Shown here piece after piece: positions 3,051 to 7,005 of a stretch of 49,967 nt of DNA (position 1 is its first letter; every line of letters begins with the position of its first letter). The translations under genes and the position numbers were made by a program. The notes beneath the pieces are model-generated. The model had not been told where the DNA came from. It saw only the letters and a program-made list of their open reading frames with translations, and did not search any database. The stretch is from Bacteroidota bacterium (GTDB taxonomy: Bacteria; Bacteroidota; Ignavibacteria; UBA10030; UBA8401), in the NCBI GenBank assembly GCA_020052095.1, contig JAGVPT010000164.1, positions 1-49,967 of the forward strand. The letters are read 5' to 3'.

Positions 3051-3085
3051 CCTTTGTTCCTCTGCCAAAGGGAGAGGAACAAAGG
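3051..3085. terminator. Perfect 13-bp hairpin between the M16 and M28 genes
   Basis: CCTTTGTTCCTCT (3051-3063) is the exact reverse complement of AGAGGAACAAAGG (3073-3085), with a 9-nt loop. No T-run follows on the plus strand, so it may be a Rho-independent-like attenuator, a processing site, or a dispersed palindromic repeat rather than a classic terminator. It starts 24 bp after the M16-like stop codon. Confidence 0.5.
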
Positions 3086-4816: not shown

Positions 4817-4845
4817 TTGAAGGTGTAGGACGCCTTAGGGTAGAC

Positions 4846-4876
4846 GGTATAGGACACCTCCAAGGTGTCATACACC
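4846..4876. repeat. REP palindrome upstream of RAYT
   Basis: Inverted repeat with core GACACCT (4853-4859), loop CCA, AGGTGTC (4863-4869). Outer arms (GGTATA versus TACACC) pair with two mismatches. It lies 30 bp before the RAYT start. A weaker related half-site, GGTGTAGGACGCC, lies just upstream at 4824-4836. Confidence 0.75.
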
Positions 4877-5111
4877 TGGTTTTCACAACACCAGATTCTC
4901 ACACCATGGAATTCGAAACGGGGAAATACTACCACTTCTACAATCGTTCTAACAACGAAGAACTTCTCTTCAAGTCCAAAGAGAATTACGTTTACTTTTT
5001 TGAAAAATATCGCTATTATTTTGAACCACTGCTTACAACATTGGCGTATTGCCTGATGCCGACGCATTTTCATTTCTTGATAAAAGTCAAAGAGATGTCT
5101 GAAATACCGAC

Positions 5112-5142
5112 GATGTCTGACACCTTAAAGGTGTCTGACATC
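5112..5142. repeat. REP palindrome inside the RAYT reading frame (copy 1)
   Basis: Near-perfect 31-bp palindrome. GATGTC (5112-5117) pairs with GACATC (5137-5142), and GACACCTT (5119-5126) pairs with AAGGTGTC (5128-5135) around a single central base. It is read through as the peptide MSDTLKVSDI in the transposase frame. It shares its core with the flanking REPs. Confidence 0.8.
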
Positions 5143-5151
5143 TCCGCATCT

Positions 5152-5181
5152 ACGTCTGAAACACCAAAGGTGTCTAACATC
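5152..5181. repeat. REP palindrome inside the RAYT reading frame (copy 2, degraded)
   Basis: A second, imperfect copy of the same unit, 9 bp after the first. The core ACACC (5161-5165) pairs with GGTGT (5169-5173), and the flanks CGTCTGA and CTAACATC resemble those of copy 1. It encodes TSETPKVSNI, parallel to MSDTLKVSDI of copy 1, so the pair looks like a tandem insertion kept in frame. Confidence 0.65.
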
Positions 5182-5543
5182 TCTCCATCTATTAAGAAAA
5201 ATATCGGGCTACTCTTAAGCAGTTACACGAAAGCAATCAACAAAAGATATAAGCGGCATGGCAGTCTCTTTCAACCGCATTCAAAAGCGAAAGAAATTGA
5301 CGATAATCAATATTTGCTTACGCTTATTTCGTATATTCATTAAAATCCTGTCCGATCAAGACTGGTTACGAAAGCAGAAGAATGGAAATATTCCAGCTGT
5401 CAAGATTTAGTCGGGATCCGGAATGGCAACTTGGCAGATAGAGAGTTTATTAAGCAATATTTTAAAACCGCCGGAGGATTTAAGAAGTATTCCGAAGAGA
5501 TTGGCTCCAACGTGAGAAAAGAGTATTGGGTTTGGCTACAGGA

Positions 5544-5568
5544 GTAGGACACTTTGGAAGTGTCCTAC
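5544..5568. repeat. REP palindrome after RAYT, also a likely terminator
   Basis: GTAGGACACTT (5544-5554) and AAGTGTCCTAC (5558-5568) form a perfect 11-bp stem with a 3-nt loop. It is followed by CCCTTTTTT, which gives the look of an intrinsic terminator on the plus strand. The stem overlaps the terminal TAG of the interrupted RAYT. Confidence 0.75.
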
Positions 5569-5586
5569 CCCTTTTTTGTCACGGTA

Positions 5587-5617
5587 GATGCAGGAGACCT
5601 TAGAGGTGTCCTACATC
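5587..5617. repeat. REP palindrome overlapping the argH stop codon
   Basis: 31-bp inverted repeat. GATG (5587-5590) pairs with CATC (5614-5617) and AGGAGACCT with AGGTGTCCT, with two mismatches in the stem. Its right arm covers the last codons and stop codon of argH (minus strand, stop at 5611-5613). Together with 5544-5568 it may terminate transcription converging from both sides. Confidence 0.7.
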
Positions 5618-7005
5618 TTTTTCGTCTTCAGCGCCCGTGTCCAATGAATAATCTGTTTTTTCACTTCTAACGGAGAAGTGCTCCCGGCCGATTTCTTATG
5701 CTCGATGCTCTTGTGGGGGGCAAGCAACTCAAATACATCATCTTCCAGTTTTGCAGAAAAGTGTTTCAACTCAATAAGTTTGAGCTGTGAGAGGCCTTTC
5801 TTATGCTCAATCGCGTGCGTAACGATTTTGCCGGTGATTGAATGCGCTTCTCTGAACGACACGCCCTTTTTCACAAGGTAGTCTGCGATCTCCGTTGCCG
5901 TCAGGAAATCGTTCTTCAGTTCTTCTTCAAATCTTTTCTTGTCAAAGGTTGTGTGGACCAGGATGTGTGAAAAGATAAACAAACACTGACGCGTTGTCGC
6001 CACGGCATCGAAGAGGGGGAGCTTGTCTTCCTGCATGTCGCGGTTGTACGCGAGAGGGAGTGCCTTCATAGTGGTAAGAATATTCACCAAATCACCAAAG
6101 ATTCTGCCGGCTTTGCCGCGCACCAACTCCGCCATATCCGGGTTCTTCTTTTGAGGCATAATGCTGCTACCCGTGGTGTAGGCGTCGTTGGTCCTGGCGA
6201 ATGCAAATTCTTGCGAGCTCCATAGAACCAGCTCTTCGCCAAATCTGCTGAGATGTGTCATAATGATGCTGCATGTCGCGATGAACTCGATCAGATAATC
6301 ACGATCGCTGACTGCGTCCATGCTGTTTTCAACGATGCCGTCAAAACCGAGTTTTCGCGCAACCAGAGCTCGATCGATCGGAAACGATGTGCCCGCTAAT
6401 GCGGCCGCGCCAAGAGGAAGTTTGTTCAATCGTTTTCGGCAATCGTGCAATCGCTCGAAATCTCGTTCAAGCATCGAGACATACGCGAGAAGGTGGTGCG
6501 ATAAGTACACCGGCTGTGCACGCTGAAGATGCGTGTACCCCGGCATCAATGTATCAAAATACTTTTCCGCCTTATACAGCAGCACTCGCTGTAATTGCAA
6601 AATCAACTTCTGCAATTCCTTGATTGCACCACGAAGATAGAGCCGCTCGTCCAATGCCACTTGATCATTTCGGCTCCGAGCAGTGTGCAGCTTCCCGCCA
6701 AGGGGGCCAATCTTTTGGATCAGCCGCTGCTCGATGGCCATGTGGATATCCTCTTTGTCCCACGACAGGTCGAGCTTGCCATGAGCGATTTCTTTTGCAA
6801 TCGACTTCAGGGCAGTTCGAATGCGCCGTGCCTCTTCCGAAGAGATTATTTTCGTTGCAGCGAGCATCTCAACATGTGCAACGCTTCCAGCGATGTCTTC
6901 CTGGTAGAATTGCTTATCGAGGTCGATAGAGGAGGAAAACCTAAGCGCGATTTCTGAAAGGGGCTCTTTGAATCTCCCGCTCCATAACGGTTGCTGGTGT
7001 GACAT
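5611..7005 (-). CDS. argH: Argininosuccinate lyase
   Basis: This is the last enzyme of arginine biosynthesis, splitting argininosuccinate into arginine and fumarate in the cytoplasm. The fumarase/aspartase superfamily signature TTGSSIMPQKKNPD is present, as are the substrate-binding segments HTARSRNDQVALDERL and TPGYTHLQRAQP-like (MPGYTHLQRAQPVYL). The length (464 residues) is normal. The start has a good Shine-Dalgarno (GGAGAC, 7 nt before ATG). No other arginine genes are nearby. It follows rplI after an intrinsic terminator, so it is probably expressed from its own promoter or by read-through. The final codons lie in a REP palindrome. Confidence 0.97.
   Translation of the reverse strand: MSHQQPLWSGRFKEPLSEIALRFSSSIDLDKQFYQEDIAGSVAHVEMLAATKIISSEEARRIRTALKSIAKEIAHGKLDLSWDKEDIHMAIEQRLIQKIGPLGGKLHTARSRNDQVALDERLYLRGAIKELQKLILQLQRVLLYKAEKYFDTLMPGYTHLQRAQPVYLSHHLLAYVSMLERDFERLHDCRKRLNKLPLGAAALAGTSFPIDRALVARKLGFDGIVENSMDAVSDRDYLIEFIATCSIIMTHLSRFGEELVLWSSQEFAFARTNDAYTTGSSIMPQKKNPDMAELVRGKAGRIFGDLVNILTTMKALPLAYNRDMQEDKLPLFDAVATTRQCLFIFSHILVHTTFDKKRFEEELKNDFLTATEIADYLVKKGVSFREAHSITGKIVTHAIEHKKGLSQLKLIELKHFSAKLEDDVFELLAPHKSIEHKKSAGSTSPLEVKKQIIHWTRALKTKKM

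Follow-up and report, generated by a model that had tools for sequence, protein, structure and literature searches.

The DNA analysed here, a stretch of 49,967 nucleotides that we call the window, carries a gene for a RAYT (TnpA_REP) protein with two REP units inside its reading frame and further REPs on either side (Table 1). On the unmodified ORF, the Pfam Y1_Tnp profile scored 22.3 bits, just below its cut-off of 23, and NF047646 scored 32.1 bits, or 60.6 bits on the read-through (curated cut-off of 80). An AF2 model of the window protein (mean pLDDT of 90.3) had as its best PDB fold match the E. coli RAYT in complex with a REP hairpin (4er8_A, E = 1.5e-7). Together with the invariant H54, H56 and Y143, the last of which we take from established knowledge of TnpA_REP proteins to be the catalytic residue, this match identifies a HuH transposase of the single-tyrosine Y1 fold. 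The REPs that flank a RAYT are dispersed in the genome, and this holds here: besides the copies at 4845, 5540 and 5586, about nine sites of the family lie on other contigs.

Table 1 Features of the RAYT locus in the window
Feature	Position	Strand	Remarks
Partial half-REP GTGTAGGACGCC	4823..4834	+	Precedes the upstream REP; read by eye
Upstream REP, window family	4845..4877	+	Palindrome search; covariance model 45.5 bits
RAYT / TnpA_REP gene (Y1 HuH transposase)	4906..5343	+	145 aa before TAA; frame otherwise open until 5547
HuH motif, H54-x-H56, reads THFH	5065..5073	+	H54 and H56 columns invariant in 50 aligned homologues
Internal REP unit 1, 33 nt (palindrome 5112-5142), reads MSDTLKVSDI	5111..5143	+	Covariance model 50.6 bits
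Internal REP unit 2, decayed, reads TSETPKVSNI	5150..5182	+	Covariance model 36.5 bits
Putative catalytic tyrosine, Y143 of YIH-NP	5332..5334	+	Y143 column invariant in 50 aligned homologues
Premature TAA; sense codon in nearest relatives	5341..5343	+	Removes half of the tyrosine helix and the C-terminal helices
Downstream REP 1	5540..5572	+	Overlaps the distal stop codon of the frame; palindrome search; covariance model 45.8 bits
Downstream REP 2	5586..5618	+	Covariance model 46.0 bits

The premature TAA, which the first-pass annotation of the window did not mention, directly follows the YIH of the tyrosine motif and falls inside the helix that bears Y143 (residues 134–150 of the AF2 model), which leaves this copy short of intact; stop-free homologues exist. 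The window gene is a RAYT by descent; because the stop comes right after the YIH motif, the copy is probably inactive in its present form, unless the TAA is an assembly error. In terms of the subclass motifs in Table 1 of Quentin et al. 2018 (PMC6006769), those of subclass 2.4 (NH[IFV]H, WQ and YIxNNP) are absent from the window gene, which has THFH, LFQ and YIH-NP. For subclass 2.6 (NH[LIV]H, WQ, YIH[QN]NP and SS), a comparison made on the motif text showed that the Y motif of the gene's kin (YIHQNP) and SS fit, and that THFH and LFQ do not; the Y motif and SS of the window gene are nearest to this subclass.

REP units inside and around the RAYT gene

The first-pass annotation had described two tandem REP units read in frame past the HuH motif and assigned them to the same family as the REPs before and after the gene. 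Both descriptions hold, with the second unit in a decayed state. The two units form an in-frame direct repeat with a period of 39 bp from start to start, or 13 codons. The palindrome of unit 1 spans 31 bp, with a stem of 14 bp that contains one mismatch and a loop of 3 nt, and unit 1 is free of stop codons in a single sense frame, the one actually used. Across the 3.9-Mb genome, the core GACACCTNNNAGGTGTC occurs exactly at five sites and with one mismatch at three more, whereas a reversed control pattern occurs at none. A covariance model found 15 distinct genomic sites at 36 bits or more. With one of them assigned to a different RAYT (C190), the window family has about 14; five of these are at the window locus, and 9 of the 14 had been used to train the model. 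The score of unit 1 was reached in 20 of 1500 synonymous codon shuffles of the window gene and in none of 500 mononucleotide shuffles.

The internal copies are members of the GATGTCNGACACC subfamily, which is present elsewhere in the genome. When the window gene was compared in a crude way with the 250 bp on either side of it, the score of 13 was non-significant (P = 0.07); we set this test aside because, by alignment, the internal copies are nearer to REPs elsewhere (contigs C12, C38 and C187) than to the flanking ones. The sequence GTAG, the canonical GT[AG]G 5′ foot of REPs, occurs within the stem of the copy at 5540 and of a copy on C21, and the internal copies are without it. A separate long palindrome, CCTTTGTTCCTCTGCC...GGGAGAGGAACAAAGG, with 16-bp arms and one mismatch, lies between two ORFs at 3051–3085 of the window and may be a terminator or another repeat.

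A search of the genome for the same family and for REPs within genes had also been proposed, and besides recovering the roughly 14 sites it revealed an in-frame copy, encoding the peptide TDVRHLQGARHLNK, in the gene for the methylpurine-DNA glycosylase Mpg (L190 1139-1744, contig C187; PF02245, 3.4e-70). The earlier statement that REPs are normally strictly intergenic is contradicted by the intragenic REPs described in passages of PMC3733652 and PMC6006769.

Eight RAYT genes of this genome have private flanking REPs (C190, C44, C143, C96, C196, C21, C104 and C174, with C196 being the window), and three of them (C196, C96 and C174) also have REPs of their own type within the gene, in frame and past the HuH motif. 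C96 has an internal array of several REP units, and C174 has arrays upstream, inside and downstream; the motifs of C174 are NHMH, WQ and YIINNP, of which the W and Y motifs fit subclass 2.4. A query of 296 genomes with the C96 protein returned only the self-match and hence no kin for comparison. Read by eye, the arrays of C96 and C174 (L032 and L036) look symmetric, with left half-REPs, a single full palindrome and right half-REPs; this architecture is seen both upstream of and inside each gene, and in C174 downstream as well. The closest paralogue of the window gene in its own genome, at 53%, is a broken RAYT on C21 (L034, C21:3829-4439). The out-of-frame part of L034 bears two palindromes of a different type, CCCCTCC...GGAGGGG. 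We also observed RAYTs with 2.1-like motifs (NHFH or NHYH, LFE or LFQ, and several YIHLNP) whose flanks bear clear, matching palindromes such as GATGACCGTCACC...GGTGACGGTCATC; they include L029 (C190), L030 (C44), L115, L126, L144, L153 and others. Subclass 2.1 is described in passages of PMC6006769 as having no associated REPs.

Palindromes in the post-HuH loop of related genes

The nearest relatives of the window gene (L046, L139, L061, L070 and L102) have a short loop and no insert. The first-pass annotation had named, as what would refute its reading, unrelated loops of equal length in all close homologues; the loops of these five are short instead, and the reading stands on this point. 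In L046, which belongs to the same family and is 61% identical, the stretch from FLI to RNIA comprises 11 residues, compared with 38 from FLI to KNIG in the window gene. The excess of 27 corresponds to about two 13-codon units and gives an insert length of approximately 26–27 codons. Residues 70–79 and 83–92 of the insert match a low-confidence stretch of the AF2 model (residues 71–90, pLDDT of 56–58), and the insert-bearing loop after the HuH motif is predicted to be flexible.

We surveyed a phylum sample of 395 genomes, 146 of which gave a homologue at E ≤ 1e-8, and analysed 142 genes after leaving out four with several stops (L034, L051, L113 and L177). An internal palindrome was called significant if it was better than those of 60 out of 60 synonymous shuffles, as was the case for 36 of the 142 genes; the window gene falls outside this group in the quick test (60 shuffles, P = 0.033). 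Among the 35 significant genes with a located HuH motif, 31 have the palindrome 8–60 residues downstream of it, a span that makes up 25% of the gene. Of the 142 genes, 31 had a significant palindrome in the loop, distributed as 20 of 96 W-type genes (which are not of subclass 2.4), 10 of 30 genes of the 2.4-like type, none of 15 of the C143/C190 type and the sole C96 gene. A second, partly overlapping set from named genomes comprised 80 loci, of which 79 were tested (L223 was excluded for a run of N and later read by hand). Significant loop palindromes occurred in 18 of these 79 genes, including three in Anaerolineales or uncultured Chloroflexi and one in an Anaerolineaceae MAG. The loop of L224, an Anaerolineaceae RAYT, contains an in-frame perfect palindrome of 47 nt with a 22-bp stem, at about codon HuH+13. 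In both sets taken together, all three reading phases are represented at the palindrome centre, and most copies are stop-free in some frames only.

Many loop palindromes fit the flanks of their own gene better than those of any, or nearly any, other gene, and others have no flanking copy. The own-flank match was unequalled by nonself flanks for L045, L050, L057, L083, L100, L158, L175, L032 and L036, with identities of 97% for L057, 91% for L045 and 89% for L100 in the phylum set; in the named-genome set, L274 reached 97% and L254 94%. The loop of L045 thus holds the REP of its own clade, 91% identical to the flanking copy, and none of 141 nonself comparisons equalled it. Among W-type genes, strong flanking palindromes accompany 13 of 23 genes with a loop palindrome and 35 of 73 without, which is no clear association, and because 10 of the 23 lack one, the term 'own REP' does not cover every gene. 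Two candidates were rejected as loop inserts on account of their C-terminal location: L047, and L131, the top row of the own-flank test with a score of 68, which is a C-terminal tandem duplication. In L131 (G160, aa 166-193), the C terminus overlaps a 68-bp direct repeat shared with the downstream flank, palindrome included.

To count origins, we used a tree of 110 proteins from which the palindrome-encoded residues had been removed. The four palindrome labels require 12 changes on this tree, and the label 'none' requires at least 10 on well-supported branches (the label pal0 of L080 is a centre-finding artefact; this gene belongs to pal2). The window gene, in phase 1, groups with insert-free relatives, and the subclade next to it contains L045, also in phase 1. 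A related REP, GGTATCGGACACC...GGTGTCCGATACC, occupies this loop in the Ignavibacteriales RAYT L223, where its phase differs from that of the window copy, and L220 has a palindrome with 13 of 15 positions paired in the phase of L223. A single ancestral insertion for all loop palindromes was rejected, as the phases differ and the distribution on the tree is patchy. The simplest reading of these sequences is that of repeated insertion into one permissive loop.

Conservation of the phase-2 hairpin

Nineteen W-type genes share a common site and phase (phase 2) and encode peptides such as NLQGFKNLGGL and DLTGFENLSGL. The stem alignment contained 18 distinct sequences; L077 was left out, its 35-mer being identical to that of L076. 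In these stems, 95.5% of cells are paired and both sides have changed in 13 of 16 pairs. Covariation was 0.563; slid versions did not exceed 0.162, and shuffles averaged 0.205.

We then compared 161 divergent gene pairs, which are not independent of one another. Third positions agree in 67% of cases inside the hairpin versus 37% outside, and amino acids agree in 41% inside versus 50% outside. The third-position identity of the block was reached by 2488 of 25708 windows elsewhere, or 2262 of 18341 when windows had at least the block's residue identity, and in 48 of the 161 pairs no window elsewhere reached it. Where both genes have the same stem type (63 pairs), residues that agree also share their codon in 79% of cases inside versus 44% outside, and third positions agree in 78% versus 38%; where the stem types differ (98 pairs), identical residues share a codon in 45% inside versus 41% outside. 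Judged from the sequences, this conservation at synonymous positions beyond the rest of the gene counts against mere tolerance and hints that the phase-2 hairpin is kept for a cis role.

In a stem-pattern search, the internal hairpin was the sole match within one mismatch in 8 of the 19 genomes (with the T1 stem in G211 and G089, and the T2 stem in G026, G054, G163, G038, G297 and G187), and thus there is no evident resident source for homogenization in those eight; a looser model search found related palindromes in all 19. The T1 stem occurs in 17 of the 395 genomes, with up to 14 copies, and of the 17 T1 loci checked, one per genome, two were within a RAYT gene. T1 is a dispersed REP in other genomes, which counts against selection, as the hairpin may have been exchanged or acquired anew at this site. 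Stem type also conflicts with the phylogeny of the proteins: the sister of L063 (T1) is L075 (T2), and L066 (T1) sits among T2 genes. L063 keeps T1 in a genome that has 36 T2 copies and no other T1. Mismatches at the 600 stem positions (4 G-T, 3 A-C and 9 other) gave no strand signal distinguishing RNA from DNA, and the close orthologues L055, L059 and L080 show one-sided stem changes that are uncompensated.

Origin of the insert and relation to known systems

We consider it probable that the window insert consists of two tandem REPs from the RAYT's own family, placed by REP mobilization near the transposase gene, kept since loop, frame and length allowed it to be translated, and left in a gene that broke later. 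The REP would have been mobilized by this RAYT or a relative, and proximity in cis may have favoured landing beside or inside the RAYT's own gene. Of the insertions into the flexible loop that joins the HuH strand to the following helix, selection would then have retained only those in frame and free of stops. The window copy would subsequently have acquired its stop and now be decaying. Family-wide, this loop would have received insertions again and again, and one clade would have kept or renewed its hairpin at the DNA level, which suggests that a REP in the phase-2 clade may still be recognizable by the transposase. Chance palindromes in a weakly constrained coding loop would account for the window palindrome being equalled by the 20 synonymous shuffles mentioned above, but we rejected this explanation as extremely improbable given the same-family copies outside the window gene, stems as long as the 22 bp of L224, the concentration of palindromes in one loop and the own-flank matches.

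Two further explanations overlap, and since exchange and function can both hold, the likelihoods that we attach to these readings need not sum to one. The loop might be an exchange site, at which RAYT cleavage or gene conversion substitutes a member of the genome's current REP family for an older internal copy, producing apparent covariation. Swaps of this kind are favoured by the conflict between stem type and protein tree (L063 and L075; L066) and by the matches of L075, L057, L050 and L098 to their own flanks, but L063 has held T1 against 36 T2 copies; we regard exchange as a possibility, though short of an even chance. Alternatively, the hairpin might be a functional cis element, bound by the RAYT in its own mRNA or single-stranded DNA so as to limit expression or copies, or serving for docking or as a master copy. 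The shared site, phase and covariation of the 18 distinct phase-2 sequences, the identical codons within the 63 same-type pairs and the eight genomes in which the hairpin is the sole stem-pattern copy all argue for such an element. Against it stand the dispersal of T1, as repeated acquisition or exchange can mimic conservation, the near-equal G-T and A-C counts, the uncompensated changes in three orthologues, the broken window copy and the absence of a link between loop palindromes and flanking REPs (13/23 versus 35/73). We therefore think a functional element unlikely, and equally doubtful the broader proposition that many RAYT genes keep their own or a related REP hairpin as a conserved, RAYT-recognized cis element whose arms change in pairs while the protein is preserved, making the gene both message and substrate.

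For the window gene itself, the suggestion that the insertion acts as a self-limiting step found no support: the stop follows the tyrosine motif, unit 2 has decayed and our tests gave no regulatory sign. A cis role in the RAYT family is possible, given the conserved hairpin in another clade.

Insertion of REPs into RAYT genes extends beyond subclass 2.4 and recurs in one loop, in several RAYT types and at least two phyla, and it may explain part of the variable loop of RAYT proteins. With one clade showing conservation and covariation at the DNA level, the choice between a tolerated insert and a regulatory or docking hairpin becomes testable in hosts that grow in culture, for example Gracilimonas mengyeensis DSM 21985 (L274). 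Our searches of the open-licence literature yielded no account of inserts of this kind beyond 2.4, nor of a covarying, synonymously conserved hairpin, and these two aspects appear to be new. The insert is not novel as an oddity, as the first-pass annotation had implied: passages of Quentin et al. 2018 (PMC6006769) describe, as a 'unique' trait of subclass 2.4, REPs in frame in tnpA_REP genes, located as a rule from HuH to Y, and expect little effect on activity because the loop is peripheral. Unlike those subclass 2.4 genes, the window gene lacks WQ and YIxNNP, and we observe the trait in W-type genes (whose Y motif is nearest to 2.6), in the C96 type and in relatives from Chloroflexota as well; the stems of one clade covary. 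The intragenic GTAG/CGTC REPs of Di Nocera et al. 2013 (PMC3733652), often in repair genes, are likewise palindromes in frame within genes, as is the window-family copy in the DNA repair gene Mpg, but the passages concerned mention no RAYT gene holding its own REP. Similarly, the Rickettsia palindromic elements (RPE) treated in passages of that paper are palindromic repeats in frame in ORFs; unlike the window family, they are described there as CGTC-tagged and have no dedicated RAYT.
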